Source of the DNA: Erigeron canadensis
Lineage: Eukaryota > Streptophyta > Magnoliopsida > Asterales > Asteraceae
Direction of reading: 5' to 3'
Assembly (NCBI RefSeq): GCF_010389155.1
Contig: NC_057763.1
Coordinates: 34,268,645 to 34,332,644 of the forward strand
Length of the DNA stretch: 64,000 bases
Shown here piece by piece: positions 23,472 to 64,000 of this stretch (positions are counted from its first letter, which is position 1; every line of letters begins with the position of its first letter). The notes beneath the pieces were generated by a model. The model was not told the origin of the DNA. It saw only the letters and a list, made by a program, of their open reading frames with translations, and did not search any database. The position numbers and the translations under genes were made by a program.

Positions 23472-24564
23472 AGTGGACTTATAATTCCTTACCTTCAAAA
23501 CATCAAAACCTGTTTGACTTTGATGGCTGGTAAAGTTATCAATCCCAATATCTATCAATGGCTTAATAGCAATATCTATCAATGGCTTAATAGCGTAATG
23601 GCATCTTGGTGATGGAATAAGGCCTAGTGACCATTAGGTCATGGGTTCAAAACCCACATTGGGGGGTTTTCTCATATTTATTGAGTTTTCTCCTGAATTG
23701 ATGTATTGACATCATTGCCTAGTGAAGATATGATCGGGTGGTACCCTGATGACACGATGATACTCAAGTGGTCTGTCAGTGATCCAAATTTGTCGTTAAA
23801 AAAAATATCTATAAAAAAATAAACGTTGACTTGTCTCCGCAAATAAGAGCAACCAAGTTGGCTATTGGTATCCGCAAGTTGCTTTATCTCGGTAATTTAA
23901 TCAAAATGTCAAAAGTCTTCTAGACGCCTGTGGTCGGGATGTTCATGAATCGGTTCGGTTCAAAAGATTTAAATAAAAAGTTAAAAACCAACAATAACAA
24001 CATTGGTGATCAAATGGCGGGTACTTGCATTACACTTACCCCTGTTTGGACACTCGAGTAGATGGAACATATAGTTAAACACATAAGATGATGACTGCTA
24101 GTTACAAGAATCCTTGATGGAACAATGGGAAGACAACAAACAGGACGAAACTAAATTTAACAGTAGGCCATATGGGACACAAGCAATCCACATAAAACTC
24201 GGTTAGCCCAAATTCGTTCACTTGGGGCTCTCAATTTGACGATTATTGTTTTTTACTTTTTCTAGGTGTAAAGTTAACACTTTCTGATGTTGATTAACTT
24301 CTCCTCGAAATCTTGAATTGCATCACCCGTACCTCTTATTCATCAGTACAATAGAGTCTTATACAACATCATCTCCGAATTTCTTAATATTGTGGGAGCA
24401 GATCATCACTGATTTACAAAAATATTAAGTAGATATGTTTGACATTTCGTAATGTTCATGTATAGTGATGTTTGGTAAAATAAGATTATACTTTCAACCT
24501 GTGGGAGCATATTATCACCAACATGAAATTTTATAGGTTAATGACCCAAATAAATAAGGGAAAT
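23472..24564. other. Intergenic with a second SINE-like sequence at 23594-23812
   Basis: A tRNA-like stretch with T-arm-like GGTCATGGGTTCAAAACCCA begins near 23594 and ends in an A-run near 23808. It is preceded by two tandem copies of a 24-bp word (AATATCTATCAATGGCTTAA then TAGC). AATATCTAT recurs just after the A-run, as a target duplication might. The rest is AT-rich without a gene. Confidence 0.45.
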
Positions 24565-25189
24565 TTCATTGGCTCAAGTATTCTACATAGCAAACAACCA
24601 ACTATTACACAAGCTGTCAACATAGACTACTCCCTCTGGTGAGCATACAAAAAAATGGATCTTTTTTCTCATCATTAACTCTGTCCCTTGGCTTCTTTGG
24701 AAACTACCTGTCATTAGCATTCGAAGGTTGCGGTCTCTTCACAGATATGAATGCAACTTTTTTTTTTGGTTCGGGTTTAGGTACCGGAAGATCCGAGGGA
24801 ACCAATAACCTGGAGCTCAGTAACTGTTCTGGTCCTAGGGTCTTGATGGAAGGAGATTGGACACCCGAAAGATCTTTTGCATCACTTTGACAGCCAACTT
24901 CTTTGCAATCATTAGTAAGACCCTCCTGTGAAGAACGACTGTCCATTTTGACAGGAATGGTATCTTTTTCGGGAGTCCAGTCCGCTATTGTATCCACTGG
25001 TTTATTGTCTATGTCAACGAAGCATAAATTATAAATCAATTTATCAAAGGCATCCAAATAGACAAGGAAAAAGCAATATGAATTTTGTAGCTGGCCTTAA
25101 GGTTACTTAGAATCAGAATGCTAACCCATTTCGGTCTTATTTCCATATGAAGGTAACCATTGTTTGTTATGAAAGAAAAAAAACCCTTT

Positions 25190-26015
25190 GGGGGTGCTTG
25201 GTTTAAAGTGAGTAATGGGAAAGGGAATGGGAAAAGGAATATAAAGGGAATATTATCATTATACACTTTTCTCTCTATGATAATACTCTCTATATCACAG
25301 ACCCTTTATCACACCCACTGATCCACACACCTCACTCCCCCTCCCCCACCCCCCACCCCCCCTCTCTCTCTCTAATAATATACTGTAACTACTACCGCCC
25401 ACCGGAATTATCTCCGGCCAAGACCATTGAACATAGTGGCTTCTCACTTTAATAATACACTTCTAACTACCACCACCCACCGAAATTATCTTCGGCCACC
25501 ATTGAACACAGTGGTTTCTCACCATAATACTCCAATCGAGTTGTCGAAGGTGGTCGCTGGGGTGGTTGTGGTGTTTCTTCGGGGTGTTGAGGAAGGGTGG
25601 TGGTGGCTGTCGGAAGGGATGGAGGTTGTCGGAGGTGTTAAGGAGGATGGGTGGTGGCGGCTATTGGAAGTGATGTCGGCGTGATGGCGGATGGCGACTG
25701 TCGAAGGTGATGGCGGATGGTGGTTGTCAGGAGTGATGGCGGATGGCGGCCGTCGAAGGTGATGGTGGATGGCGGCTGTCGGAGGTGATGTTGGATGACG
25801 GTTGTTGGAGGTTATGTGGGGTGATTCGGGTAGAGAAAGGATAGAATCATAGAAGAGGAGATTTGTGAGGATTGATTACCTTACCCCTCAAATTATTGGG
25901 TAATGCTCCATTACCTACTCTTAGGTATTGATTATATTTCCTTACCCCTACCAAGCATTAGTATTAATTACCTTTGCCATTCCTTACCCCTAAAAACCCC
26001 CAACCAGGCACCCCC
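25190..26015. mobile_element. TIR element with internal minisatellite, present only in copy A
   Basis: The ends are GGGGGTGCTTGGTT and the reverse complement of GGGGGTGCCTGGTT. The arms continue into 'gggaatgggaaagg'-like sequence. Copy B has the uninterrupted site near 50560. The centre (about 25600-25800) has imperfect tandem units of about 36 bp built on 'gtgatggcggatggcggc'. No coding capacity is supported. The target duplication is unclear. Confidence 0.7.
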
Positions 26016-27785
26016 AAACTTCCAACAAAATTGAAGAAAATCCTCAAACGTTGAAATTTTGGATGAAAACACTCCAAATTTTCAAGAAATACCACGTTAA
26101 CTTTATATTTTAGGGTCGACTATTACCTGCTATCTTAGCTAACCATCTTTATTCTCTTGCCAGCAACCCTAAAACTTCGATGCAAACACTCAAGAGTTTC
26201 AAAATAACAATGTTGACTATATTTTAACACATGCCTGATATATTATACTTTAAAAAGCTTCGATAAAAACAATCCCAAGTGTTTCAAAATAAACAAGGTT
26301 GACTATATTTGAACACAGGGCTGACCTAGTATTTGGATATCGATTACCTACTGTCAAGGTTGAAGATTACCCTAAATCAAAATTTTATGTAGTTTGAAAT
26401 TTTTTATAATGCAAACAAAGTTAGTTACCATTTTATGCAAATAAGTGAATACTAAACCATATTTACCTCCAAGAATAATTTCAAAACTTTGATACTCCAC
26501 TGCAGATAAACCTTGAGCTACAACGTCATTTTCTATTGTCCCTGGGAGTTTGTTTTCGGGTTCACTCTTCTGCTCGAGTAAGATGAACTTATCAGTTTCC
26601 CAGATACACTCCAAAAACACAGCTTCCTCATTTTTCAGGCAATATTCCCTAAAAACCTAGAAATTATTCACACAGAAAGACGGTTTACAAGGCTATAAGA
26701 TCAAACCAGGTAAAGACTAAAGAGATAATTTATCATGTAGAAAAATGAAAAATACATCAATTCCTTCTTGATTCAGCTTAATAGACTGCCGCTTATTGGA
26801 TAGAGATGAAACCATGTTGAATACCAAAACAACATCGAGTAATATCTGCTCAAAGATAAGATTGCATGATCATGTGTGAAGTGTACAAGTATTTACATGT
26901 AAAACTGTAGCATGCTGCATGCATACCATCGCATAAATAATAAGCCCTGTAAATACTAATAAAGATCATAAAGACAATAATCATCATAATACTAAAGTGG
27001 TGCTTACTTGCTGGGTCAAATCTCGAAGACGTGCAAGCAGGGCCAACAGAGTCGTGGAAAAACCCATGAAGAAGGATCGAGCAAGCAAAGTAGATATTTC
27101 TCTTCGAAAGGTCAAGGAGATGAACAAATAATTGCATGATAATATAAATACAGTACTAAACAATTCAACCAATATAAATCAGAACTATAGCCAAGAGTAT
27201 ATGTAGTAGTGTCAGCAGTAACATGCTCTTCCACACTCCAAACAAAATTGCTTGAAAAGTATAAGGGTCACATGTTCCAACTAAGACAATAACGGCTATG
27301 ATAATACCTTGTGAATTACGCATGTATACCAAACAGCCAATTGATCATAGATCAACTGGTATTGCCGCCGCTATGCTCAAGAAGGCCTAACATGTGAGGT
27401 TATTTGTGGTTAGGTGATCTGCAGGCGTCCTTCCCTTGCGGGTGGGATTGGCTAGTACCAAAATTGTACAGGGGATCAAGGGGTGTTCTCCAAAGTACCC
27501 ATTTTTTTTCCAAATGTATACCAGACAAGAAAAAAAAAATGCATATGAAAAGCTTAATGAATAATATGAAACAAATAAAAACCACAAAATACTCGAGTAT
27601 TTTGGAAAGTAGGATACATAGCTGCCTTTACCATAGGTTCGACCATCTGCAAAGAAAGCAGCAGATATTATTAGACGGAAATTCATGAACAAGTCCATCT
27701 GACAACGCCAGTTCTACACATAAACAACTCATAAATGTCTAAAATATACAAGATTATACTACTAGTGATACTATACTTCAGATAA

Positions 27786-28037
27786 TCATACACCAATTGG
27801 GTTGGATCAAGTGGCTGAAGCCCTTGCCTCTGGAGACAGAGGTCAAGCGTTCGATCCGCATGCCCAGTAAGGCTGGAGGTCCTTTTCTACCTTTGGTAGA
27901 ACCTGGAAGCAGTTTGTCTACCTTAGGTAGCGGTGAGGCTGTCTACATATCAAGCTCCCTCACACACTGTCGAAGACGGTATTGGGACCCAAAACCCGTG
28001 GAAGACGGCATTGGGTGTTACTTACTTACGTTTTTTA
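27786..28037 (+). mobile_element. tRNA-derived SINE, copy S2
   Basis: Same family as S1 (box A GGGTTGGATCAAGTGGCTG, box B-like CGTTCGATCC, body with GTCGAAGACGGTATTGGGAC). The flanks are GATACTATACTTCAGATAA (27767-27785) and GATACTATACTACAGATAA (28038-28056), a 19-bp duplication with one mismatch. It lies in an intron of the copy A pseudogene, and copy B has it at the same place. Confidence 0.85.
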
Positions 28038-29494
28038 GATACTATACTACAGATAACAACGATAAAAGCTAAAGGGGTTCGGTAATGGCTGTCAAATTAC
28101 TTGGTCTTTGCCCATTCTATGTCAGTAAAATAGACAACATCAGTATGGAAAGCACCGTCTGCACAATTATAGGATTTATCTATTTTCAATCTGTCATGAC
28201 CAAGTAAAACCATAATGTGTGAAGGGTTGTGAACGCAAGTAATGGTGAACTTATATGAAAATAACGAAACCTTTGTAAGTTTCTTAAGTCACTCCACATA
28301 TATCATCCCGAGACAAACTCCAAAACCCGACCTACGGGGCATGAAACTTGCAGAGCTACACCTATAATAGTCCTAACAACTTAGGGCAGACACGACAAGT
28401 TTCAAGCTATTTAACCATTTTCAAGGATAAAACAAAAGAGATCATGAGTGAACCCGTAGAGTCTTTTCCAGTATCAAATGTTTTCACGGGAGCCACACTC
28501 TAGTATATAGAAAATTCGTGCTTTCTGAAATTATAAAAATCACCTACGAAAGTAGACGTGCAGCACCCAGAAGTCGAACCAGAAAATTATGTTTGCCACC
28601 ATCACTTTTTCTTTTCAAACTGGGGGATATAAAAATGTCAAATTCAATACAAAAGGTTGCAATATTTGCAGTATATATAAAGAGCAAACAGGTTTGCCTT
28701 GAACTTTTCTTACATGGCAAGTCACTTAATACCACCCTGCCCCAGAATATCTTCTATTCATACCATCCTTGAACTGACTACCTCACCCTATATCCATTCA
28801 AAACCAGACTCACTGATAAATGTTTCTTTGCAATTAAAACAACAAATTATATTTGTAAGAAATGACTGTAGCAAGTTGCAGCCATTTTATCTACTGCAAG
28901 GACTAAACTTATAGAGCTATTAGTAGCCAGTTTTCCATCTCTTGCAGGAGATAAAGATAGTTGCAGATTGCTGCAGGTATCGTTTCCTCTTTATGTTATG
29001 TGTAAAGCAAAACCATTTTAATCAAAGTTAAAGACAAATTACTAATGCACACGCGACGTTTTTATAGCAAAACCTTATATAGCTGCAGAACGTCAGATAC
29101 AGGACTTTTGAGCCGCACCCCATACTCATCCCAAATCTAAAAGAGGTTTGGCAACAAACCCATTTGTTAACACCCCACATTCACTTCATGTGAGCAGGGT
29201 GAGATAAAACCCGACAAAAAGCATTCCATTTCCGTCTCTTATAAGCAACAAGGAATGTAAATCAGAAACATGGATTCAGACATAAGAGAACTAAATCAGC
29301 TATAACTATTTTCATCATCAAAGTGTTTAAGGGTAACCAATTGCCATTTTAACTATAAAACAATAATTGATCCACCTTCACAAACAAAGTATATGACGCC
29401 ATGTCAGTTTCATTTGAGGAAGTTATACTAAAACAAAAATGAGTAGCTATACCTTTCCAAGAGCTGCACTTTTTGCTTCAGTCGATTGCCATTA

Positions 29495-37520: not shown

Positions 37521-37716
37521 GTCGACGCCACCACTACAGGTCATCGCCACCACTACACCGCCACCGTAACATTACGCAAATATCTTTTTAGTTATCTCTC
37601 AAATTTTACCATTACTTTTTTCAAAGACCTTTATATTGTGTGCAAAAAGTATTAGGGTGTTATAGTTAAAAAAAAATATTGGAAACGTGATAAAGGAATA
37701 CTAAGACACTTAATAT

Positions 37717-38500
37717 AAAACGGAGTATTACCTAAATAACAAATAATTAATTTAAACTAGAATAATCAAAAGATTCATAACTTTAATAATTAATATTTCA
37801 ACTTAATAATTAAAATATACACATGATAAAGGAAGGAAGGAAAGTTGCGTACGCCAACATATAGTTTTTATATTTATTTATGGTTTATAATATGATTTTA
37901 GGGGTTGTTTTTTCTTCTAATTATATAAAGTAAAAATATTAATATTGTCATTTATAAAGATAAAATAATTAAAGTTGATCTAATGGTTTTTAATCAAAGT
38001 TATTTTGACTGACCAAGTCTTTTTTTTTCCGACTTTGACAGTAAATATCTTTATTTGTGCTTTATATTAATTGATCAAAGTTATATTAATAAAAAGTACA
38101 TTTAAAACTCAATCAATTCATATATGTTACATCAAGTTTTATATAACACAAACAAAAAAAATATATGGTCAAAGTTGAAACAAAAAAACTAAAAAAATAA
38201 TAATAAGATATTTAATATGGAACGGATGGAGTATTACCTAAATAACAAATAATTAATTTAAACTAAAATAATCAAACGATTCATAAATTGAATAATTAAT
38301 ATTTCAACTTAATAATTAAGATATACACATGATAAAGGAGGAAGGAAAGTTCCTTCGACAACATATAATTTTTGTATTTATTTATATATTATGATATGAT
38401 TTTAAGGGGGTTTTTTGTCTAATCATATATAAAGTGAAAGTATTAATATTGTCATTCTATAAAGATGAAATAATTAAATTAGATCTAATGGTTGTAAATC
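37717..38500 (+). repeat. Direct repeat, about 280-bp unit, spaced 506 bp
   Basis: The stretch at 37717-37992 recurs at 38223-38500 with a constant offset of about 506 bp ('attacctaaataacaaataa', 'atatacacatgataaaggag', 'tattaatattgtcatt'). It may be a tandem duplication or long terminal repeats of a small element; no internal coding sequence distinguishes these. Confidence 0.65.
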
Positions 38501-38878
38501 AAAGATGGAACTCATCCAAAGGTTTTTATTTGTTTAAAAATGCATTTAGGACCTTGTTATATATATATATATATATTGGTAGATAGAAAAAGTTAAATTT
38601 AAGAAAAAAAATTTTTTTTTTTTGAAAAAATCAAGTAATTAAGACAATTGTGTTTCTATATAAGGAGATTCAATTGTAATTTTAAACTAGATACAAGAAA
38701 AATTAAATCAAGTATAATAAATTGGTATTACAAATTGACAGTTATTTTAAAATACTACAAAACACCAGCGTATTATATCAATACATACAAGTTATCGTCG
38801 TTATTATTTTACGAGTATTTTCGTTAATATTTCACATTCACGGTATCACCAACCACCTCCTTGCTGCTGCTGCTTCTT

Positions 38879-38909
<31 letters not shown>

Positions 38910-39003
38910 TTCTTCTTCATTTCTGAAATCCAACGCCCGTTGAGAATCACCCATCAAGGAAATTAATTTTTTTATAAAAAAAAACCCTTTAATTAATATT
39001 AAA
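38501..39003 (+). promoter_or_regulatory. Upstream region of the chimeric gene with (CTT)n
   Basis: AT-rich sequence ending in a TTC/CTT microsatellite at about 38873-38920, typical of plant 5' UTRs. By eye it does not match the region upstream of the intact TSB gene, so the promoter may not be inherited from TSB. It also contains a short (TA)n run near 38560-38576. Confidence 0.4.
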
Positions 39004-42000
39004 ATGGCGGCTGCTTATTATTCTTTCGCATCCACATCATCCATAATAATCCCAACCCGCACCACAACAAATCCTTTATCAGCTTGTTCACCACTTGTGA
39101 AACCCAACACACTTTCAAAATCACCAATAATCAAGAGAAAAGGGCCACCTAGCTCATCACTAAACCTGTTAGCAACTTCTTGTAATATTCTTCGCGGCAA
39201 AGGATCAAGGGCTCAAATGGGTTCTGTTCAACATGATTATGATTCGGTTGGCTGGTTTGGGAAATATGGTGGCAATAAGTATGTCCCTGAATCCCTGATG
39301 TCTGCTCTTGCTGAAATTCAATCAGCTTCTAAAGCAATTTTTACGACTGACCATGAATGCCAGGTAAAATTAATTTTACTTTTATACTTGATCGATACTC
39401 AATATAAATAAACAACTTTTGTGTCTCTCGATCAGTCTGCTGTGTGTGTTTGTTTCGTGATAAAAGTACTAAGAGCTCTCGCAGTGGCTGGTTCGTTATC
39501 ACGAGCTCTTAATTGGTTCGTGTAGGTGTACCGGTGATTCGTGACTCTAACCGAGAACGATTTTGGTCTTTTTTGTTTACAGTGAGCCATGGTTATAAAA
39601 TAAATAACCGTGGCGTTTTTGAGGTGGGGGAAGGGTGAAAAGAAAATCGCGATCCGAAATTGAAAGGATAAGGGTGATCGGAATTTTACCGATGGATTGA
39701 CGGGGAAGGATGGTGATAGGAAGTTAGTTGTAGGTTCTTTTGTAACTTGGGTTGGTGAGGTTGATCTCAATTACTCAGATATATACATATGGGAGTAGGT
39801 GAGTTCGGGGTAGTTGAGGTTTAAGGTTTTTATACATTTTTAATTTACACATGGGAGTAGGTGAGTTAATTACAAATTTCGTTTTATTGTCCACCGTAGC
39901 TTTTGTTTTTAGACCAATCTTAAAAGACAAGGTAAAAAAGATACGTGGAAAAAAGATGATGTAAAGATAAACTGTTAAGAACTAGTGTTAGGTTAAGTAA
40001 AATGGTGAAGCGGGTTAAGTGATTTGGTTCACCTAAGGTAAAAGGATAAAAGTGGGGTCCATTTTGTTTATATTATTTGTGTGGTATTTTCATTGGGTAT
40101 ATTGTGAAGTATAGTGACACAATGTGGATAATAATGAGGTATTAAGATCAGAAGGTGAACGGTTAAAGAAGAAAAGAAAAGATAATACTGATGCTGATAT
40201 GATAAAAAAAATTTAAGTGAAAAAAATTAACGGTTATGAATGGTCTTAACTATTGTTACATTTTTGGTCCAATTTTTTTTCTTAGTCAATAAATTTTGTC
40301 AACATAAATAACAACTTTTAAAATTAAAGGCATGTGTCGAGCATGTGAGGATAAAATGGTATGTTTTTATCTATTAAAAAAAAGGGGTAAATGGTTGACA
40401 ACATCCTATGTATTGTCTTGGTACCCATAACGTACATTGCATAGAACTTATGCTCAGTAAATCACCGTCCTCACAAACAGATTATAAGATATATTCAAAA
40501 GTATTCTTTTAAGGCAAAAGAAGTGACAACATCCTTTGAAATTGGTGGAGCTACCTCAAATTCAAATACTGATAATGCCCTAAAAGATTTCCACTTGTCT
40601 ATTTTAAATAATTATAGCATTACAAATACCCTTTCTATCTATTTGGCAATATTTGAAGTTTTGAACCCATGACCATAAGATAGAACCCTTTGAAAGAAAT
40701 AATTATGGGATTATCTGTTATTCATGTTATATTTGAGCTTTAATAATTTGAATGTTGCTCTATCAATTGTGTTGCTCAAATGGATATTATTTGTTTTTGT
40801 AGCAAAATTCTACTACAATGCACCTTGGGAATATTATTAAAGAGACAAAAGGTATGGTTTTTTTCTTCTTATTACATGTATTGTTTATTTTAATAAGCTT
40901 ATTTTTAAAACATTACAAGCTAAGTCTTATAGATTATAGATTCATGATAATCAACTACTAACTTTAAAATTGGTTCTATTTTTTAAAATTTGAAAAAGTT
41001 TAAGGTGTGTTTAGTTGGGAAAAACATTTCTTGTTTTCTATTTTTGTTTTATAAGAAAACATGAGAAACAAAAAATGCGTTCAAATCATAGTTTTGCAAA
41101 AATGTTTTCCATGAGATCAATAAACACTGTTTTTTCTCCTTTTTATGAAAATTTAGAAAATAATTTTTTATCGTTTTACACTTTTCGTTTTCCATTTTTT
41201 AAATTTTGAAAGTCTCATTGTTTTTCATTTTTTCTAGTTTTGAACGCGTTTTCAAAATATTCTTTTGTTTTTTAGGAATGAAAAACTTCTTTTATTTTCT
41301 AGAAAATTGAAAATAGAAAACTAAAAAATGTTTAACGTGCCCTTATGTTTTCATTTTCTTATAAACAACTAATTACTTTTTTATATTGATTGCAATCCTA
41401 AGATTATAAAAAAAACTTATTTAAAACTTGAATTAGTTTAATTTTGATTCCTGCTTATTCTTATACAAGGAATGCATTGAACTATTGAAGTATCTATATA
41501 TGTATGTTAATCATTAACCTCTTTGGTTCATTCTTATTTGATACTTGATAGAACAATATCAATATCTGTGACTTAGACAAAATATGATATATTCAAGAAA
41601 AAAAAAAAAGAACAGTGTAAGGGAGTAAAACATTCAATAGTAGAAAAGGGAGTTAAAAGTTCAAAATGGAATGACTAATGTAAATTCATATATCTTAAAT
41701 TCTTAATCTAGCGATTTACCCAAAAAAAATTCATATAGCTTGCTAACCGACTATCCTTGTATTATTGAATCTTAAATCGTATTTTTTTTCTTTTCCAACA
41801 ACACTTAGCTATGATCAAAGTAGTCATGTTTAAACGATTAATTAAATATCTGATAGTTCATTATTTATTTATAATAATTATTAATATTTTATTACGTGTG
41901 TTTTGATTGATAGATCAAAATCTAATCATGGACTTTGATATGTTCACAGATGGAAGAACAAAAATTTTTAGCCAAAGTTGTTCCAAAACGCAAATTCCTT

Positions 42001-44821
42001 TTCAATTACGTAAATTCTACCTCGGCGCGCTATATGTATATTGATTTTGACTCGGCTTAATATTCACCATTGATCATCATTTGTAATCTTCAGTTTAAAG
42101 TCATATTAGAAAATCAAGGTTTCTTCATGTTTTAATTTTCTATCTTCATACGGAGTAAATAACTTTAGATTTATTTATTTATTTGTTTTTTACATTAGCT
42201 TATAATTTAGTTGATCGAGACTTTAATCATCAAGACTTAGAGGGGAATATCCTCTCTCTACATTATAACTAAATTAATATCAAAGTGTATAAAACTATTT
42301 TAATGCATTCTTATTTTTGTATGAATCCTTATATTTGTGTATCCAATATAAGACTTTTAAGTGTATGTAGATACTAATTTTATGATTAAAAATAATATAA
42401 ATCATCTTCCAAAGACTACTATATTATGGAATAAAACTTTATTTGTAGAATTTCTTACGTAGTTATTTTGATCCAAATAATGCATTACACAACATAAATA
42501 TTCGTATATAATAGCTTACGTTCTGAGACCCCAAACTCAATATTGAATGTACGTTGTTTGGCAACTCTTAAAACTCCTACCTGTTTGTTTATTACAGATT
42601 ATCGTATAGTATTTAAAGGGATCTCAGAAGCAATAAAGCAAAAACCTGAAGTTTTAAAGGGACCACTAGCGGATGTGCTTTCAAAGCGGTCTCTCACTTG
42701 GGGCTCAGTGTCTACGTCATTGCTACTTGTATATGAACAAACTGTTAAATCTAGAAAGGAAAGACCAGAAGAAATTTCATTTGATGATTTAGTAGGTCTA
42801 AAAGATGCCAAGGCTGACGTGAAATTGGTAATTTGACACTTTTTCAGTGACCTTGACTCTTAACTTGTAGATTAATTAACTCATACAATTTTTATGTAGA
42901 TTTTGGAAACACTCAAAGGGGATCGTCAATTCGTAGAATTTGGAGAAAAATCACCCGGGGGGGTTTTGATTTGTGGTCCAGAAGGCACAGGAAAGGAAAC
43001 ATTGGCCAATGCTATTGCATACGAAGCCAATGTTCCATTTTTCAATGTTTCAGCTGAAGAAATTACAAGGGATGGTGCAACTAAGGGAATTGCAACAATA
43101 ATAAGTCTATTCTTGGTGGCAAGAATTTACCCGCGATGTTTAATCTATATTAAGGATATAGATGCTATCGATGGAAAGCAAACAACTAGTAAACCTGGTC
43201 CGATTTTATTGCAGGTAAACATAACAAGCATATGCACATATATATATATATATAGGGGAGGTGAGAGATTGTCCTCCATTTAAGTTTAGTTGAAAGACCC
43301 TGACATTTTAAATTATTAATTAATAAAAATTATAAAGCCCAAAGCATTTATCTATTTATTTTTACCAAATTTTAAAATATTTGTATGTAAGGTGTTATCA
43401 TTGAAAGCTTAAATGAGCGACAATCTCGTATTCATTTTGTCTAAAATTACATTTAATTTAATTTTCTCTTTGCACACGATTTTTGTCTAAAGTTACATTT
43501 AGTTTAATTTTCTCTTTGGCACCGTGTGCATCTTAGCTAGAGGTTTATGGAAAACTGGAAGTTTGTGGGGATTGGTTGTAGATATCATTGATTGGTTGTG
43601 GTGAGATGTGGTGTTTAGTCAGATTCTTTACCCCTTTTGAAATAGATGTGCAACCACCTCTTTTCTGCAAGTGATATCAGATTTGCTAAGTGATATTATT
43701 TTGCTAATGTTCGAAAAAATAATCAGATTTGCTAGAGTAAAAAAAAGCACAATCTATAGATTAATTATATGATTTAGAATATTGTAATCTAGTGTGATTT
43801 TAAATGTATCCCTTTTTTTTTTAACAGCAGAAAGTAACATATTAATAATAAGTGTTAATCGACTAGAAAGATGCTAGTTATCAAGTACAATAGTCTAAAA
43901 ATACAACTACACATTTTAGACCCATCTCGAAACTTTAAATGTGTCCCTTTAAAACAATACATTATGGAGTATCATTCTTCAAAACATAATCGTTTCATTC
44001 ATTGCTTTTAATGTTATACGAGTAGCTGCTAACTGATATGGAGAAATGCAACAAGGATGGACATATGGCAATAGTTATCGGAGGTACTACCAAGGAACCT
44101 GAGTTGCTGGATCCAAAATTGAGGAATTCTGAACTTTTCTTAAGAGAAGTGCGAGTGGACAAACCAGATAAGGATGCAAGGGAAGGATTTATTGATTTAT
44201 ATTTGACAAAATATACGACACAGGAAAACAAAAAGGAAATATGCACTCTTATCGTTTCAGAAACGGAGGGCTTAGTAAGAAATCATATCAGTAGAGTGTG
44301 TAAGCTATCTAAACAAAATGCTTACGAGAAAGGTATGTTTTAGAGCTGGAGATCGAAACATTTTTTCAAAAAGGAAATGATACATCTTCCTAAAGATTAG
44401 TCTAAATTTTTAAAATTTTTTTTTTTTAAGACAATGACATGTGTATTCCTCTAAATCACTTTCCTAATTTTATCTCTTCTTTTTTACACAAGTCTATCAT
44501 CATTTGACTATTTATATAGGAGGAATAATCATTTTCCTTTTTCAAATGAAGCACACTAATGTAGTCGGTTTCTTTTAATTAGATGGTAAGTACGTTACCA
44601 CTGCAAATGTGATCGAAGCTCTTAAAACGGTCAAGGCAAGTATAACTACTTCGATGGCACAACAAAAGCAGCTCACCAAAGGTACGTTTGTAAACTATAC
44701 AAATTATATATCAAATAATGAAGCAGATATTTCTTTTAAATGATGGATAGTGATGTCTGTTTTGTTGATTATAGATGGTGAGTACGGGAACAAGGTAAAC
44801 ATTCTTGAAGCTCCTAACTAG
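39004..44821 (+). CDS. Chimeric TSB exon 1 - FtsH-like pseudo-AAA protein
   Basis: Seven exons: 39004-39363, 40803-40851, 42598-42827, 42900-43214, 44026-44332, 44583-44681 and 44775-44821. They total 1407 bp (468 aa), with GT-AG borders and consistent phases. Residues 1-120 are a diverged copy of tryptophan synthase beta exon 1: a Ser/Thr-rich transit peptide, then MGSVQ...FGKYGGNKYVPESLMSAL, ending at the same intron as TSB. From about 137 the protein resembles the AAA+ domain of plastid FtsH/FtsHi proteins (ERPEEISFDDLVGLKDAKAD). Walker A at 239-246 is GPEGTGKE, with Glu where Thr/Ser binds Mg. Walker B at 293-299 is CLIYIKD, with Lys and Asp replacing the usual Asp-Glu. LLDPKLRNSELFLREV replaces the Arg-finger region. 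There is no HEXXH protease domain. I infer a plastid-targeted protein without ATPase or protease activity. The gene call rests on open, in-phase exons; transcription is unproven. Confidence 0.75.
41001..41345. mobile_element. MITE in intron 2 of the chimeric gene
   Basis: The left end TAAGGTGTGTTTAGTTGGG and the right end (reverse complement of TAAGGGCACGTTAAACA) form imperfect inverted termini. The arms are 'tttctattttc'-rich. No coding potential. Confidence 0.45.
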
Positions 44822-49233: not shown

Positions 49234-49933
49234 TAAATATAAACCTTAAAAGCAAAAAGTTTAATACATACAAAAATACAATCAATATAGTTAAACTTAT
49301 GGAGACATGAATGACAACAACTGAAGCAAGTTCTACTTCATAATGGATTGGAATCCAATGGGAGAGATGCACTGATAAACACAAAAACGGAAACATAAAA
49401 ATATGCTCATCGATGTACATTGATCATGTATTCTTGTGCTAGGTTCCGTATTCGTGCAACATTGTATATGTATCCATATATATGTATATAAATTCTATAT
49501 GGAAAATCCTCTAATTAACTTACTCATTAAGATGGGAGCACATCAATTCCACTTGATCCTTGATCTAAAAAGAGCCATTTCAAGATAGGCAAAAGATCAG
49601 AATATAGAACACCCGAGCAGTTGCATACACGTACATCTGGAGACAATCAGACTTGCCTTTCATGCCATACAGTATACACATATATGGAGGCGAGCTAATT
49701 ATAGGATGTGGCGCTTAGTTTTTAGGTTTTTCAAGCCCACATCAGAATTAATTGTTTTAAGCCCATAAAAGTTTTTAAAGGTCCATTTATTTTCTATCAC
49801 TCAAAAGGTCCATATTTTGGTATTTAATTGTAACAACTAGACTACGAATGTATTTGCGTAAGTGGTCGCCTCTTGTAACAACAAACAAGTAAACTATGAT
49901 GGCAATGAGAAGGTTATTATCGGGGATCTCAAT
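49234..49933. other. Spacer before duplication copy B
   Basis: AT-rich sequence up to the left border of copy B. No gene supported. Confidence 0.3.
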
Positions 49934-49990
49934 TTTCATTGGCTCAAGCATTCTCCATACCAAACAAACAAACAAATATTACACAAGTTG

Positions 49991-52900
49991 TCAAAAAAGA
50001 CTACTCCCCCTAGTGAGCATACAAAAAAATGGATCCTTTTTCTCATCATTAACCCCGTCTCTTGGCTTCTTTGGAAACGCCATGTCATTAGCATTCGAAG
50101 GTTGCGGTCTCTTCACAGTTATAAATGCAACTTTCTTTTTTGGTTCAGGTTTAGGTACTGGAGGATCTGAGGGAGCCAATAAACTGGAGCTCGGTAACTG
50201 TTCGGGTCCTAGGGTCTTGATGGAAGGAGATTGGACACCCGAAAGATCTTTTGCATCACTTTGACAGCCAACTTCTTTGCAATCATTAGTAAGACCCTCC
50301 GGTGAAGAAAGACTGTCCATGTTGATGGGAGTGGTACCTTTTTCGGGAGTCCGGTCCGCTATTGTATCCACTGGTTCATTGTCTAGATCAATGAAGCATA
50401 TCTTATATATAAAATTATCAAAGGCATTCAAATAGACAAGGAAAAAGCAATATAAAATTTGTAGCTAGTCTTAAGGTTACTTAAAATCAGAATGCTAACC
50501 CATTTCGGTCTTATTTCCATATTAAGGTAACCATTGTTTGTTGTGAAAGAAAAAAACCCCTGAACTTGCGACAAAATTGAAAAAAAAATCCTCAAACGTT
50601 GAAATTTTGGATGAAAACACTCCAAATTTTCAGGAAAAACCACATTAACTTTATGTTTTAGGGTCGACTATTACCTGCTATCTTAGTTAACCATCTTATT
50701 CTCTTGCCAGCAACCATAAAACTTCGATGCAAACACTCAAGAGTTTCAAAATAACAATCTTGACTATATTTTAACACATGGCTGATATATATTATAATAA
50801 AAAAAGGCTTCGATAAAACACTCCCAAGAGTTTAAAAAAAAAAAACAAAGTTGACTATATTTGAACACAGGGCTGACCTAGTATTTGGATATCGATTACC
50901 TACTATCAAGGTTGAAGATTACCCTAAATCAAAATTTTCTGTAGTTTGAGGTTTTTTATAGTGCAAACAAATTTAGCTACCTTTTATGCATAGAAGTGAG
51001 TACTAACCCAAATTTACCTCCAAGGATTATTTCTATACTTTGATACTCCACTGCAGATAAACCTTGAGTTACAACACCATTTTCTATTGTCCCTGGAAGT
51101 TTGTTTTCCGGTTCACTCTTCCGCTCGAGTAAGATGAACTTATCAGTTTCCCAGATACACTCCAAAAAGACAGCTTCCTCATTTTTCGGGTAATATTCCC
51201 TAAAAACCTAAAAATTATTCACACAAAAAGACGGTTTACAAGGCTATAAGATTAAACCAGATAAAAAGATAATTTATCATGAGAGAAATGAAAAATACAT
51301 CAATTCCTTCTTGATTCAGTTTAATAGACTGCCGCTTATGGGATAGAGATGAAACCATGTTGAATACTGAAACAACGTCAAGTAATATCTGCTCAAAGAT
51401 AAGATCGCATCATCATGTGTGAAGCGTACAACTAATTACATGTAAAACTGTAGCATGCTGCATGCATACCATTGCATAAATAATAATACCAATAAATACT
51501 AAAAAAGATCATAAAGACAATAATCATCATAATATTAAAGTGGTGCTTACTTGCTGGGTCAAAACTCGAAAACGTGCAAGCAGGGCCAACACAGTCGTGG
51601 AAAAACCCATGAAGAAGGATCGAGCAAGCAAAGTAGATATTTCTCTTCGAAAGGTCAAGGAGATGAACAAATAATTGCATGATAATATATATACAGTACA
51701 AACAATTCAAACTAAAACAAATCAGAACTATAGCCAAGAGTATATGTAGTAGTGTCAGCAGTAACATAAGCTTCCACACGCAAAACAAAATTGCTTGAAA
51801 AGTATGAGGGTCGCATGTTCCAACTAAGACCATAAAGGCTACAATAATACCTTGTGAATTACGCATGTATGCCATACAAATAGATCAACCGGTACCGCCG
51901 CCACTATGACCAAGGTCTAACATGTGAGGTTATTTGGGTTAGGTGATTTGCAAGCGTCCTTCCCTTGCGGGTGGAACTGGCTAGTACCAAAATGGTACCA
52001 GGGATCAAGGGGTTCCCTCCAAACTACCCATTTTTTTCCAGATGAATACCAGACAAGAAAAAAAATAGCATATGAAAAGCTTAATGAATAATATGAAACA
52101 GATGAAAACACAAAGTACTCGAGTATTTTGGAAAGTAGGATACATAGCTGCCTTTACCATAGGCTCAACCATCTGCAAAAAAAGCAGCAGATATTATTAG
52201 ATGGTAGTTCATAAACAAGTCCAAGGTTGTAAATATCGGTTATCGGTTTCTTATCGGCCGACCCCCGATAAGCGATATATCGGGGATATATCGGATACCC
52301 TAAAATGTAAAGGAATTTATCTAAAATTTATATATATACTAACAAATAAACAATTTGTAATGCAATACATCAATAATTAGAATATAAAACTATAGAAAAG
52401 AAAATAATTACAATTAAAGTTTCGAAATTTAAGTATCTATAGCCTATATTTAAAAGGGAAAAACGGTAGTAAAGAAAGTAATTACAATTTACAACTAGAA
52501 TTTAAAAGATTATTAAAGATAAACTCAAAAATTAAAGAATTAATTAAAAATCAGCTAGAAAAAATTGATTTAAAGAAAGTAATAAACCCTAATATTTGAT
52601 AAAAACCCAGTTTTTTTTTAAAAAAAAATTGGTCATTTTTTTTTACCAATATGGACCGATAAGTGCCGAGTTTGACCGACTAAAACGATAAATTGCCCGA
52701 TAAGTCATTTTTCTTATCGGTGAAGGGCCGATAACCAATATATCGCCGATATATCGGCCGATAAATCCGATATTTACAGCACTGAACAAGTCCATCTGAC
52801 AACACCACTTCTACACATAAACAACTCAAAAATGTCTAACATATACAAGATTATACTACTAGCGATAATATACTTCAATTAATCATACACCAACTGGGTT

Positions 52901-55257
52901 GGATCAAGTGGTTGGAGCCCTTGCCTCTGGAGGCAGAGGTCAAGGATTTAGGGTTCAATCCTCATGCCCAGCAAGACCCGAGGTCCTTTTTTACCTTAGG
53001 TAAAACCTGGAAGCAGCCTCTATACCTTGGGTAGCGGTGAGGCTGTCGACGTATCAACCTCCCTCATACACCGTCGAAGACGGTATTGGGACCCAAAACC
53101 CGTGGAAGACGGAATTAGGTGTTACTTGCTTGCTATTTTTAAATACTATACTTCAGATAACAATGATAAAAGTTAAATGGGTTCGGTGATGGCTGTCAAA
53201 TTACGTTTACACTTTGGTCTTTGCCCATTCTATGTTGGTAAAACAGACAACATCAGTATGGAAAGCACCGTCTGCACAAATTATAGGATATATGTATTTT
53301 CGATCTGTCATGACTAAGTAAAACCAAAATGCGTGAACGGTTGTGAACGTAAGTAATGGTGAACTTATATGATTCTAATGAAACCTTTGTAAGTTTCTTA
53401 AGTCACTCCTCATATATTATCCTGAATCATTCCACTAACAAACTTCAAAACCCAACCTAAGGGGCATAAAACTTGCAGAGCTACACCTATAATAGCCGTA
53501 ACAACTTAGGACAGACACGACAAGTTTCAAGCCATTTAACTATTTTCATGGATAATACGAAAGATATCAGGGGCGGACCCGTAGAGTCTTCTTCAATATC
53601 AAATGTTTTCATGGGAGCCACACTCTAGTATATTATAAATTCGTGCTTTCTGAAACTATAAGAAGTACCTGTGAAAGTAGACGTGCAGCACCCAGAAGTC
53701 GCACCAGAAAATTATGTTTGCCACCATCACCCTTTCTTCTCTTCAAACTGGGGGATATAAAATGTCAAATTCAATACAAAAAGGTTGCAGTGTTTGCACT
53801 ATATATAATGAGCAAACAGGTTTGCCTTGAACTTTTCTTACATGGAAAGTCACTTAATATCCATCCTGCCCCAGAAAGAATTTAATCTATTCATACCATC
53901 CTTGAACTGACTACCTCACCCCATATCCATTCAAAACCAGACTCACTGATAAATGTTTCTTTACAATTTAAAATACAATTTATATTTGGATAAAATAACG
54001 ACCGTAGCAAGTTGCAGCCATTTTATCTACTGCCAGAACTAAAGTACAAGAGCTATTAGTAGCCATTTCTCCATCTCCTGCAGAAGCTAAAGATAGTTGC
54101 ATATTGCCACACGTATCATTTCCTCTTTACGTTATGTGTAAAGCAAAACCATATTAATCGAAGCTACTAAAGACAAATTACTAATGCACACCCGATGTTT
54201 TTATTGCAAATTTTATATTGCGGCAGAACCTCAGATACAGGACTTTTGAGCCACACCCCATATACTTTCCAAATCTAAAAAAGATTTGGCAACACACCCA
54301 TTTATTAACACCCCACATTCACTTCATGTGAGCAGGGTGAGATAACACCCGACAAAAAGCATTCCATTGCCTTCTCTTATAAGCAACAAGGAATGTAAAT
54401 CAGAAACGTGGATTCAGACATAAACAGACTAAACCAGCTATAACTAATTTCATCATCAAAGCGTTTAAGGGTAATCGATAGCCATTTTAACTATAAAGCA
54501 ATACTTTTTTCTCTTTGGATAAAAAGGATTACCCTTTTGAACTATACAACAATCTTTGATCCACCTTCACAAACAAAGGAATGTAAATCAGAAACATGGA
54601 TTCAGACATAAGAGAACTAAATCAGCTATAACTATTTTCATCATCAAAGTGTTTAAGGGTAACCAATTGCCATTTTAACTATAAAACAATAATTGATCCA
54701 CCTTCACAAACAAAGTATATGACGCCATGTCAGTTTCATTTGAGGAAGTTATACTAAAACAAAAATGAACAAAATGAGTAGCTATACCTTTCCAAGAGCT
54801 GCACTTTTTGCTTCGGTCGATTGCCATTGATAACAAGAAAACATGAACTAACAATTTCCTCCAGGTTAGTCGCTTGAAGAAGCTTACAGTCTCTCCTCAC
54901 CTACATTACAACAACTCTCGTCACAAAACTCGAGAAAATGCAGCCTCTAGGTACAATGCTACCATTTATTCTAAGGGTTATGGTTAGCAAAATCCTATAA
55001 AGAAAAGCGCTTTTACATAAAGTAAACTTTTCGAGTTTGGCAGGCCTATCTACTTAGTAAATATCGCACATGGGCACCGAAATACATAAGACGGAATAAC
55101 GACAAAGTAAGGTAAGGTATACCTTCAGCAAGTATTGGAAATATGAGCTTCTTCTATGTTGGTTTTTATTCTTGTGAATGATTCTATCAAGCACGCCTAA
55201 CTCTGACTGAAACTGACTTATAAAAGATTGTAACCTTGTTTCAACTTCAGCATCCAT
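49991..55257 (-). CDS. NEPRO/RMP1-like nucleolar protein (DUF4477 type)
   Basis: Eight exons on the minus strand: 55257-55123, 54900-54788, 53747-53669, 52172-52144, 51644-51551, 51388-51299, 51207-51018 and 50382-49991. They total 1122 bp (373 aa), with all phases consistent. The N-terminal domain (LQSFISQFQSELGVLDRIIH, NKNQHRRSSYFQYLLKVRRD, GGKHNFLVRLLGAARLLSQ, VEPMVKAAIEISTLLARSF and ALLARFRVLTQQILLDVV) matches, from memory, the plant 'nucleolus and neural progenitor protein' family. That family is related to the RNase MRP subunit Rmp1, so a role in RNase MRP/pre-rRNA processing is inferred. A basic C-terminal patch (PEPKKKVAFITVKRPQP) could be a nuclear localisation signal. The gene is head-to-head with TSB, 1.9 kb away. 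Its 5'-truncated duplicate is at 24704-29494. Confidence 0.82.
52222..52784. mobile_element. hAT-like element with perfect 8-bp TSD in copy B
   Basis: A 563-bp insertion flanked by AACAAGTC (52214-52221 and 52785-52792). The ends are CAAGGTTGTAAATATCGG and the reverse complement of CAGTGCTGTAAATATCGG. The interior is rich in TATCGG/CCGATA words. Copy A retains the empty site with a single AACAAGTC near 27690. It lies just upstream of exon 4 of the NEPRO-like gene, in intron 3. Confidence 0.9.
52882..53141 (+). mobile_element. tRNA-derived SINE, copy S3
   Basis: Same SINE and same insertion site as S2 in copy A, with decayed flanking duplications (GATAATATACTTCAATTAAT at the left, AATACTATACTTCAGATAAC at the right). 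It was therefore inserted before the segmental duplication. Confidence 0.85.
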
Positions 55258-57128: not shown

Positions 57129-60100
57129 ATGAAAATGGTGGCTGCTTCTTTCACACCCACACTCCCAACCCACACAGCCACCATTTCCAATCCATCCTCT
57201 TCATCTTGTTCACCATTTCTGAAACCCAACTCACTTTTACAATCACCTCTTAAGAAAATCGAGCCCAGCTCACCAAACCCATTTACAGTTTCTTGTGTTC
57301 TTGCTAAAGAATCAAGGGTTCAAATGGGTTCTGCTCAAGATGATTCCTTTGCCCTCCAACGACCCGATTCGCTTGGCCGGTTTGGGAAATATGGTGGAAA
57401 GTATGTCCCTGAAACCTTGATGTATGCTCTTTCTGAACTTGAATCAGCTTTTAAAGCCCTTTCTACGGACCATCAATTCCAGGTTATTTTATTATTTATT
57501 TACTTATAGACAGTTGATACACATTTGTTATTTTTGGTTATTAATCTTTGGGTTTTTACAGTCTGATTTTGTACACGTGTACACTTTACAGTTGATTAAG
57601 GCTTAAAGTTTAAACTTGTGTTTGAATATGGGTTTGAAAGTAAGTATTTAATAATTGAATAATCCTAGCCACAAAAATAAGAAAATAACATGTGGATGTG
57701 CTTCTGCAATTTGTAATATTAATTATTAACAATCTTTGTCTACAAATGTTGTTGTGGCTAGTGTTTGACAATTTTGAACTGCCTAAACTAGTTATTCATA
57801 TAGTGTTGTAAAAGTTTAGTTTTGTTGCAGATTACTTGCTTCAAAATGCACATCGAAACACTCCCATAAAAAGTTGGAAAATTTGTTCAATATTACTTTT
57901 CAGTCGGACAGGACTGTGTGTCCATGTCAAAAGTTTAAATGTGTGCTACCTTGCATAAGTTTGCAGTAATTGGTGTATGATGAAAGCTCTTCGCTGCGAA
58001 AATCTTAATTTCTACGTTTACAAATTATGTGAATGCAGGAGGAATTAGATGGGATTTTGAAGGACTATGTTGGTAGGGAAACCCCTCTATATTTTGCAGA
58101 GCGACTTACAGAACATTATAAGCGTCCTAACGGTGAAGGACCCGAAATCTATCTTAAGAGGGAAGATCTTAATCATACTGGTGCACATAAGATAAATAAT
58201 GCGGTTGCACAAGCTTTGCTGGCTAAGAAGTTAGGGAAAGAGCGAATCATTGCAGAAACTGGTGCTGGGCAACATGGAGTTGCAACTGCCACTGTATGTG
58301 CACGATTTGGGTTGAAGTGTATTATTTATATGGGTGCTCAAGATATGGAAAGACAAGCCCTTAATGTGTTCAGGATGAAGCTCCTTGGAGCAGAGGTTTG
58401 TTTGCTATATTCCTTTTCATATTAATGCAAAGTACTCAATATTAGACTAGAGTTTATATCATATCCTGTTAACTTTTAAAAATGATTATTTGGGCTACAA
58501 TAAGATATTAGTTGTTGAAACTGTGTTATCTTGTTTGATTAAATTTATGTAAGATAGAACCTGCCTTTCTTCGAAATTTGCATCTAGATGTGTCCTTGCT
58601 TTACCCATGGTAATATGGTATACCACTAGGCACTAGAGGTGGCAAAATGGGTGGGTTTTAGAACCGGGTTTAAATGTTCTATATTTATATACATTTTATG
58701 AGTTAGTGGCGTTATTGCAATGATGTGTGTTTACCATGCATACAGTAAATATTCTATAATTATAAATGCCTGATCTTGTTCTACTCACAACATACCTCCG
58801 TTATTGCTAGATGGACGCAAATGAGAACTTTTACTCATTGTCCTGTGATTTTGTGAACAGAAATTTGTTGAACGGATATTTGTAATTGCTCTAGTGTAAG
58901 ATATTCAACTCGTATACTGTGAGACCAACTTTCTAGATAGAAGTTAGCCTTCAGATGATTGTATTGTAATTGTACCACTTAGGATAGCTGAAGATAAGGA
59001 TTATAATGAGATGTTTGCATGTGCTGCAAAAGTAATTATTGTGACTTGATGTCCACATAATCAGTTCTGCAATATTCGGTAAAACTCAGTCTTTAATCAT
59101 TTTTTTTAGGACGATAATAATCATATATGTAGAGGTGGACAAAGAAACAAAGACTTTCTATGAAATAACTGATTTCTGAACAAATATGTGAAACTACATA
59201 GCTGTCTGTAACTTTAATCAGTTTGATTATCTGACGATGTAATTATCTGATTACAGGTGTTTATATATTTACTCTAAAAAGACACATCCATACATTTGCT
59301 TTTCCATATGAGATGTTATTATGGTATCTTGATGCAAAAAATCTACACCAACTTCTACCTAGATCTTGAATGGTCTGAAGAATAGCTTCATGTTTCTCTA
59401 TCTTTAAGTAAAAAAAATGAATTAAGTAACACCCAACGCCGTCTTCCACGGGTTTTGGGTCCCAGTACCACGACGGTGTATGGAAATGAATGTGATAAAT
59501 ATTCTCCTAAGTCCCAACTTTCAGTTGGAGAAGCTTATTTTCATTTAAAGATTCCATGATTACTATTTTGAGTAAATAGATACAATTTCATTTCTAGTTT
59601 AGCTTTTAACGTGAAATTTTGCTACAACATAGAGGTACTAATTGCTAAATTCAATCCAGTTAGTTATGGGAGGTCAAATAAAAGATTTAGCTAATAGGGG
59701 GACTGGTCAAACCGATTGAAAGCCACCTGAAGTCTATTGTATTGCATACAACATCTTAAATCAGTTTAGTCAAAGATTTAGATCACTATTGTAACAAATT
59801 TGCAGTATTGCTTGTTATCTGTAAAAATGTGTAATTGGCAAAAAAGTTTTTGTGGGTCAACCTACCCCACCTGGCTCGTTTCAGCAGGTACTTGAAATTG
59901 ACCCAGCTTGACCTGAACAATTTACCCAAACTTCCCATCTTGCCATGTGCCCATGTATACTGTGACGTAATATAAGCTGATGCTTCATCTGTTCATCCGG
60001 CCATTCACAGCGATTGTTAACATTTTATAGGTTAGAGCAGTTCATTCGGGGACAGCCACACTAAAGGATGCAACATCAGAAGCCATACGAGACTGGGTGA

Positions 60101-62400: not shown

Positions 62401-63807
62401 TTAACAAAAGGCAAGTAGTTCAGTGTCGGCTTGAACAATTTCCATGTCCTGTTTTCCTAGACTCACAAGTGCTTCTATACTACCATCCCCATTCGGGCCA
62501 TCCATCAGTATAAAGCTGTTCTTGCCTACATTTCCAGCAAGAGTTACTTTAACGGGCTTTCCCCATCCAAAGTCGATACCATATGTAGGATACCCACATA
62601 CGCTTGTACACACATAATAATCCTTCATTTTGTTTCGCTGCCCTTCTGCATAATCTTCAGAAAAATTGTTCAAAATGTGCCCATAGATAGTTTGGATATC
62701 TTTTATGCCTCCAATTTCCATCTTTTTCTTCCTAAGTTCGCCAATTATATACCCGGGATTCATTTCACTTTCGTTTCTCGTTTCAACATCCAACATTGAG
62801 AGAATATTTCCAATGCTGTTTTCAGGCAAGGGCTCGATCATTTTCCTTCTTATGTTGACAGCAATGCTAATACCTGTGGGTTTATAAGGGCCTGAATTAT
62901 TTTTAGTAGCTGCTGCCACAGAATATTTATAAAGTAACCAAGTCAAAGCTTCAACACGAGTAGGGTTCATGATGGGTTGTCCGCATTCCATAGACATGGC
63001 CATGGCTTTGAGTTTAAGGTCGTTTATCTTTGAGCCCGGGAACATGAAACTCCTTGTGACACAATCCTTTGGGGTATCGATATAGACTCCTGAGAAATTT
63101 ATGTTAGTATGTTCACAAGTAATAAAATGAGGGTCAATGAGAATCTCAGGTGTATCTTTTTTGGAGCAAATTCGTGTCATTTTAGCCCAGTCGCTAAAGA
63201 AATGGTACAGACTACTACCATCTGCTATCTTGTGAGATAACGACACTGCCACCGCTACTCCTCCACATTCAAAATGATTGACTTGAACTGCTAGAGGGAT
63301 CACACTGTTGTTTAGAAGATGATCATCACTTTGAAGGTTTATGCTGTTAAATACTCGACCGTATGGAAAACATTGGTTGAGATCATCATGTTGTGAGTTT
63401 TGGAGATATTTCATGAGCGTGCTATTAACAGATGCTTGTAGAAAGTCAACTCCCTCGTCGTTGCAATCAACATAGGTCGGGGCCATTTTTGCATACCTAC
63501 CAGCGAAAGGGTAATATTTTGTAAGAGTTTGAGATAACGAGTTCTTGAGTTCAAGCATTTTATCATGGGAACTAGGATATGTGCCCGTGTTTTGGTAGAA
63601 TGTAACTAGCGGAGTGAATGTGCTTGTAACAATTTGATCAAGCGACGAAAGATTGTATGCTCTTCGGTGAGGAGGAGTTGGAGAGGAAGGTTTGATCAGT
63701 TCTCGTGAGACAATTGTGTGAATTCGCCTTCTACCAAGTAACACTATTAGACTATTGATTATTGTCATCTTCACAATGGAAGGGCTAGCTTTTTGTGATA
63801 ACACCAT
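62401..63807 (-). CDS. BAHD acyltransferase
   Basis: Single-exon, 468-aa BAHD family acyl-CoA-dependent acyltransferase, cytosolic, of specialised metabolism. The catalytic HXXXD motif is H192-K-I-A-D196 (SLSHKIADGSSLYHFF). The structural DFGWG motif is at 412-416, followed by KPVKV. The N-terminal signature SRELIKPSSPTPPH, and the overall shape, fit the clade that contains vinorine synthase and similar alkaloid/terpenoid O-acetyltransferases. The acceptor cannot be predicted from sequence. The N-terminus is about 25-30 residues longer than usual before the SRELIKPS motif. A TATATATA stretch on the minus strand at about 63833-63841 is only about 30 bp from the first ATG, so the in-frame ATG at 63766-63768 (residue 14) may be the true start. 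Confidence 0.93.
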   Translation of the reverse strand: MVLSQKASPSIVKMTIINSLIVLLGRRRIHTIVSRELIKPSSPTPPHRRAYNLSSLDQIVTSTFTPLVTFYQNTGTYPSSHDKMLELKNSLSQTLTKYYPFAGRYAKMAPTYVDCNDEGVDFLQASVNSTLMKYLQNSQHDDLNQCFPYGRVFNSINLQSDDHLLNNSVIPLAVQVNHFECGGVAVAVSLSHKIADGSSLYHFFSDWAKMTRICSKKDTPEILIDPHFITCEHTNINFSGVYIDTPKDCVTRSFMFPGSKINDLKLKAMAMSMECGQPIMNPTRVEALTWLLYKYSVAAATKNNSGPYKPTGISIAVNIRRKMIEPLPENSIGNILSMLDVETRNESEMNPGYIIGELRKKKMEIGGIKDIQTIYGHILNNFSEDYAEGQRNKMKDYYVCTSVCGYPTYGIDFGWGKPVKVTLAGNVGKNSFILMDGPNGDGSIEALVSLGKQDMEIVQADTELLAFC

Positions 63808-64000
63808 TGTGATTTCTCATATATTCTCTCTCTATATATACAGACAAATTTGAATAAATAAGTAAACAAGGTAAATGAATATATAAACCAAGCATGAGGT
63901 TCGATACTGCTATATACAATCTCGGGTGACCAGGAAAGGGTTTGAAACGGTCATCTCCCGGATAGGTCAAGTACATATGAGTCAAAATACTTGTTTTTTC
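63808..64000 (-). promoter_or_regulatory. Promoter of the BAHD gene
   Basis: Core promoter read on the minus strand: TATATATAGAGAGAG at about 63827-63841, close to the start codon. The rest of the promoter runs off the window. Confidence 0.5.

Follow-up and report, generated by a model that had tools for sequence, protein, structure and literature searches.

A tryptophan synthase beta first exon joined in frame to an AAA-only FTSHI3-like gene in horseweed

How did a first exon of the tryptophan synthase beta (TSB) type come to stand in frame before an FtsH-like AAA gene, and could the resulting chimera encode a plastid protein? The question is raised by a locus on C3 of horseweed (Erigeron canadensis). 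The window, a stretch of 64,000 nucleotides (C3:34268645-34332644), was analysed together with searches of the 426 Mb genome, and the gene concerned, here called the fusion, occupies positions 39004-44821 of its plus strand. As a gene structure, the chimera is genuine. On balance, an AAA-only FTSHI3-like copy was probably joined to a duplicated TSB exon 1, and the predicted product is a plastid-targeted, non-catalytic AAA protein. Judged from the DNA, an origin by exon shuffling is well supported, because homology to TSB runs through the splice donor, the phase-0 acceptor of the recipient family is conserved, and the native upstream exons are absent.

The fusion comprises seven exons totalling 1407 nt and 468 codons with no internal stop, and all six introns have GT-AG boundaries. 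The first-pass annotation had proposed seven exons adding up to 1407 bp with compatible phases, and this was confirmed, the junctions 39363/40803 and 40851/42598 being exact. The exons and the TSB sequences related to the first of them are as follows.

39004 to 39363, plus strand: fusion exon 1, a diverged copy of TSB exon 1 encoding the presequence and some 50 residues that once belonged to mature TSB; phase-0 donor
40803 to 40851, plus strand: fusion exon 2, homologous to native exon 3 in the recipient family, with a phase-0 acceptor and a phase-1 donor
42598 to 42827, plus strand: fusion exon 3, linker, weakened membrane helix and start of the AAA domain; 230 nt, as in paralogue C1a
42900 to 43214, plus strand: fusion exon 4, degenerate Walker A (GPEGTGKE) and Walker B (IYIKDID)
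44026 to 44332, plus strand: fusion exon 5, degenerate sensor 1 and arginine-finger region; lid
44583 to 44681, plus strand: fusion exon 6, end of the lid; in paralogue C1sib a stop codon stands at the end of the corresponding exon
44775 to 44821, plus strand: fusion exon 7, 15 codons, then the stop TAG
57135 to 57482, plus strand: TSB exon 1, the nearest relative of fusion exon 1 by DNA and protein comparison
38918 to 38963, plus strand: partial TSB-exon-1-like fragment (local score against TSB exon 1, 42; 2000 block shuffles reached at most 31)

The TSB gene starts at 57129 on the plus strand, 18 kb downstream of fusion exon 1. Over 109 aligned codons the first exons of the two genes share 56% amino acid and 76% nucleotide identity, and the similarity spans the start-codon context, exon 1, the splice donor and approximately 20 nt of intron, past which no similarity was found between the fusion and TSB first introns. 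The earlier proposal that exon 1 is a diverged duplicate of TSB exon 1 with a phase-0 donor is thereby borne out. When the genome was searched with exon 1 as DNA, two matches came from two candidates, exon 1 itself and the TSB exon (72%); TSB as a protein query gave 16 matches, among them exon 1 of another TSB gene, on C5. The TSB query protein was partial, with exons between 58425 and 60031 and after 60477 left out; in the window it matched only three TSB exons and the fusion exon, and no TSB exon from the second onward was found near the fusion. The partial fragment at 38918-38963 lies 41-86 bp upstream of the fusion ATG and is nearer TSB than fusion exon 1. Residues 1-75 of the fusion contain no acidic, nine basic and 21 serine or threonine residues, and a composition lacking acidic residues and containing basic residues, serine and threonine fits a plastid presequence. 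The description of exon 1 as a transit-peptide exon requires refinement, as the exon encodes the former mature TSB residues in addition to the presequence.

The fusion translation is identical to P0001 (UniRef/nr; 468 aa; Erigeron), annotated as 'probable inactive ATP-dependent zinc metalloprotease FTSHI 3, chloroplastic', an independent annotation that chose the same gene model and may rest on prediction alone. P0001 was the sole match among 78 candidates in a protein search with residues 1-140, which also missed length-matched plant TSBs and so is insensitive to this N-terminus. A protein search with residues 121-468 returned 22 matches from 3659 candidates, P0001 followed by FtsH proteins of approximately 30% identity that are prokaryotic where the source is named. 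Within intron 2, positions 40999-41328 hold a short repeat with copies of about 80% identity on many chromosomes (40 of 733 candidates scored), probably a small transposable element.

Exons 2 to 7 had been read as an FtsH-type AAA region, a reading upheld by the AAA domain PF00004 at residues 235-362 (Pfam, E 2.9e-19) and by FtsH as the best NCBIfam model, below its cut-off. The first Foldseek match is an E. coli FtsH model, and proteasomal ATPases and Ycf2-FtsHi chains follow closely. A VCP-like ATPase origin, raised by the top PDB sequence matches, was rejected, as the VCP alignment falls into two separate domains (73 and 91 bits), whereas FtsH gives 106 bits in one domain and is also the best NCBIfam model. 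Neither the M41 peptidase nor PF06480, the N-terminal FtsH membrane part, was matched in the fusion protein at E up to 1, and the protein ends after the lid without an HEXXH motif. Walker B reads IYIKDID in the fusion compared with IFIDELD in FTSHI3, the pore loop and arginine finger are lost, and Walker A is GPEGTGKE in the fusion and intact in C1a and in the AAA-only protein P0027. Peak 19-residue hydropathy before the AAA domain is 0.87 in the fusion, 1.47 in C1sib, 1.64 in C1a, 1.83 in P0025, 1.86 in the canonical FTSHI3 P0073 and 0.87 in P0027. An AlphaFold model built on an alignment of 18 rows is of poor quality beyond the AAA part (mean pLDDT 59, with residues 1-168 below 50) and uninformative on exon 1.

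The recipient family was traced by an exon-wise search of the genome, which gave 65 matches from 98 candidates. The nearest relatives of the fusion form a six-copy row over 47 kb on C1 (41390140-41436765; L033-L038), and two further copies, C1f and C1g, lie 2.4 Mb away from it. C1a is open over 386 joined codons with phases 0,0,1,0,0,1 and has the same 230-nt exon as the fusion, and C1b contains an in-frame stop codon; open and broken copies are mixed in the C1 row, and the AAA-only family seems to be amplifying and decaying. Among the protein relatives of the AAA part (best 120 of 2496), the AAA-only relatives in the matches listed are P0024 (E. canadensis, matching locus C1g), P0025 (Tanacetum coccineum), P0026 (Artemisia annua) and P0027. 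The occurrence of the AAA-only clade in Tanacetum and Artemisia implies that it is older than Erigeron. These four proteins fall in the same tree clade as the fusion and share with it the alterations of Walker B, pore loop and arginine finger, changes common to other AAA-only rows and present in the open-frame P0025 and P0026.

A phylogenetic tree of 19 rows with a midpoint root (C1b, C1c, C1d, C1e, C2a, C6 and C9a left out) groups the fusion with C1sib (93/89) and then with C1f (100/99). The AAA-only clade sits on a long branch opposite canonical FTSHI3, with three bacterial FtsH rows on the FTSHI3 side of the midpoint root, and descent from FTSHI3 can therefore not be read from the tree by itself. 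Canonical FTSHI3 on C8 (P0073), however, has introns at the same two AAA-part places as the AAA-only family, and these shared intron places together with sequence similarity point to descent of the clade from FTSHI3. FTSHI3 is described as a plastid pseudo-protease in the cited passages (PMC8261292, PMC8197885), and the fusion resembles it in having an FtsH-type AAA domain without HEXXH and the two shared intron places. It differs in that P0073 retains Walker A and B, pore loop, arginine finger and PF06480, whereas the fusion does not. A horseweed transcript not assigned to a locus, with FTSHI 3 as its best match, appears among genes changed upon glyphosate treatment (PMC8535903).

What stood before the AAA exons in the recipient family can be read from its other members. 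C1a, C1b, C1g and C1f start with two short, native, presequence-like exons, each ending in phase 0; those of C1a read MTTMIKTSVCNPNFPSL.. and IPSRIHHPVSL... The acceptor of the native third exon in C1a, C1b and C1g is TTTTGTAG, followed across the junction by CAA, and the same acceptor occurs at fusion exon 2; that of C1sib is close (TTTTTGTAG, followed by CTT). Immediately after fusion exon 2 the donor reads GTAWGS, as it does in C1a, C1b, C1g and C1sib, and from this exon on, exon boundaries and phases are those of the relatives. P0024 contains both native exons with the intervening intron read through, the N-termini of P0025 and P0027 are comparable to the native one, and P0026, in its annotated form, has its start close to native exon 3. 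A TSB-like start occurs in none of these proteins (0/4); P0024, P0025 and P0027, with native-type N-termini, differ from the fusion, which starts with the TSB exon. No convincing relics of native exons 1 and 2 were found before C1sib or near the fusion (L034 and the window from 11203 on), the best match in the window (E 0.002) lying far off at 12271-12321. The phase-compatible boundary and the native exons of the relatives suggest that TSB exon 1 stands where two native exons were.

Selection on the two parts was assessed by dN/dS (NG86; 500 bootstraps for exon 1, 1000 for the AAA part) and by neutral simulation. The AAA part compared with C1sib over 274 codons, leaving out the first 54 codons and the frameshifted stretch, gave dN 0.31, dS 0.97 and omega 0.32 (bootstrap 0.22-0.46), which shows apparent constraint over time before as well as after the fusion. 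In neutral simulations the AAA part (1044 nt) remained stop-free in 6/500 runs at 0.1 and 0/500 at 0.2 substitutions per site, and exon 1 was stop-free in 7-22% (3000 simulations per setting); the earlier argument that the intact structure is unlikely under random decay thus holds for the AAA part, while for exon 1 it has little force. When the coding DNA of exon 1 is aligned with TSB, all seven gaps are multiples of three, a count obtained with a raised gap-opening cost and perhaps including gaps on the TSB branch, where selection keeps frame. Given gaps in threes and a near-neutral substitution ratio, exon 1 appears to have kept its frame while its former TSB residues drifted.

A number of observations weigh against a functional chimera, among them that the AAA-part omega is not confined to the time since the fusion. 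The comparison of exon 1 with TSB that the first-pass annotation had proposed gave dN 0.26, dS 0.37 and omega 0.71 (0.45-1.17), near neutral apart from the kept frame, and the differences are spread over codon positions 1/2/3 as 29/24/25. On the fusion branch, 39 mature-part codons carry 11 nonsynonymous and two synonymous changes, against a neutral expectation of 0.76 nonsynonymous (outgroup, the C5 TSB gene; two one-codon fusion insertions removed). The NCBIfam FtsH model reaches 123 bits against a cut-off of 600. C1sib, the nearest paralogue, has a one-base deletion in a T run, and the roughly 3.5 kb between C1b and its first exon contain no recognised native exons and no TSB exon, so that this lineage may be in decay. 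For C1a, the public model (P0023, 259 aa) has a later start and omits the native first exons. Finally, an in-frame ATG in exon 2 of the fusion (40818) could start a 343-aa protein without the presequence.

The neutral-like change in exon 1, the loss of catalytic motifs and the decay common in the family, as in C1b and C1sib, would fit a real chimera made by shuffling that is now decaying, with a functionless product and an open frame that merely reflects youth. This is possible, though unlikely: the AAA part is open over a length at which few or no simulated copies stayed open, its omega against C1sib is low, and the motif loss also occurs in open-frame relatives such as P0025 and P0026. The internal ATG and the intron of 1439 nt between exon 1 and the 49-nt exon 2 speak for another alternative, that gene prediction combined a remnant TSB exon with an AAA gene or pseudogene that has a start of its own, the phases agreeing by chance, as they would in about one case in three. 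Such an artefact is improbable, since exon 2 carries the acceptor that belongs to the family and that in the relatives needs an upstream phase-0 donor, exon 1 has retained an open frame and a donor, and an independent annotation gave the same model, though perhaps from prediction.

The surroundings of the chimera, which bear on its route of origin, contain two further kinds of repeated sequence.

24561 to 29493, minus strand: low-copy block X, with a second, tandem copy at 49931 to 54828
37600 to 38568, no strand assigned: dispersed repeat, searched from 37600 on, with one copy at C3:2848406-2849363 (93% identity) and other long ones

The order in the window is X (minus strand), fusion, X copy and TSB gene. 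The X copies are 88-96% identical in pieces and 87% over the stretch searched; the part 27800-29360 has only two full-length copies in the genome, besides a short repeat in its first 250 bp, and the X open reading frame (ORF) at 24704-25096 has no Pfam match. The dispersed repeat is about 1 kb long and ends 436 bp before the fusion ATG, and a weaker relative (about 74%) lies upstream of paralogue C1f (L039). The TSB fragment, the dispersed repeat and the two X copies appear to mark a site of repeated local duplication. A single tandem duplication of X and TSB is not favoured, because the X copies (87-96%) are too similar and exon 1 (76%) and intron 1, dissimilar beyond about 20 nt, too diverged, unless X was homogenised later. 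Elsewhere in the window, the plus-strand ORF at 926-2011 contains a plant mobile domain (PF10536, E 2.9e-63) and is probably transposon-derived, a TORTIFOLIA1-like N-terminal exon lies at 8532-9341 on the minus strand, and an acyltransferase ORF that belongs to the Transferase family (PF02458) runs without interruption over 62401-63816 on the minus strand.

In the favoured reading, a copy from the amplified C1 family would have landed behind the duplicated TSB exon 1 on C3 without the two N-terminal exons of its relatives, which, given the state of C1sib, the moved copy may already have lacked. The donor of TSB exon 1 and the acceptor of the first remaining exon are both phase 0, and splicing between them would therefore be in frame. 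Whether this gave the AAA copy its first plastid address, as the earlier proposal of a new plastid-targeted gene born by exon shuffling implied, is a separate matter: the shuffling is well supported, and the claim of a first gain is weakened. A moved copy without a presequence, for which the TSB exon was the first address, would agree with the lack of a recognised native first exon in C1sib, but that loss may be secondary, other Erigeron and Tanacetum relatives start with native presequence-like sequences, and in Arabidopsis FtsHi3 is located in plastids according to the passage cited (PMC8261292). First gain is consequently improbable, and since the relatives have their own presequence-like N-termini and FtsHi3 is plastid-localised (PMC8261292), a swap of presequences is the more likely event.

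Expression of the fusion and import of its product into plastids through the TSB-derived presequence are plausible predictions. The product would be non-catalytic, having no protease domain and having lost Walker B, pore loop and arginine finger, and, because the membrane helix before the AAA domain is weak, it might be mainly stromal and soluble. An activity, if there is one, would most likely consist in partnering an FtsH-type ring as a regulator or decoy. A bolder version, in which the gene is expressed and an FTSHI3-like membrane protein became, through the swap, helix weakening and motif loss, a soluble decoy in the stroma and a lineage-specific regulator of plastid FtsH/FtsHi, possibly with TSB-like expression, is speculative and improbable.

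Among known systems, the closest precedent is the nuclear rpl32 gene of Populus and other Malpighiales, described in the cited passages as carrying the transit peptide of plastid SOD-1 by exon shuffling (PMC8018952). In both cases exon shuffling supplied the transit peptide, and its source was a duplicate of a nuclear gene whose product is plastidial. In rpl32 a gene newly transferred from the plastid genome, with a clear function, gained an address (PMC8018952), whereas here a nuclear AAA copy is concerned, whose relatives have N-terminal exons of their own. Recruitment of a transit peptide through an intron has likewise been proposed for chl-fus, which encodes plastid elongation factor G, but there the intron is phase 1 and the event ancient (PMC4522979), whereas here the phase is 0 and donor and recipient family are in one genome. 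No published title describing a TSB-FTSHI3-like fusion or an AAA-only clade was found, full texts having been checked only in the passages cited.

Capture of a transit peptide by exon shuffling is thus known, and the fusion is a new, well-resolved case of it. Donor exon, recipient family, replaced exons and intron phases are all readable in one genome, so that the step from two genes to a chimera is directly testable with reads and related genomes, and the locus reveals catalytically degenerate AAA-only relatives of FTSHI3 in Asteraceae.

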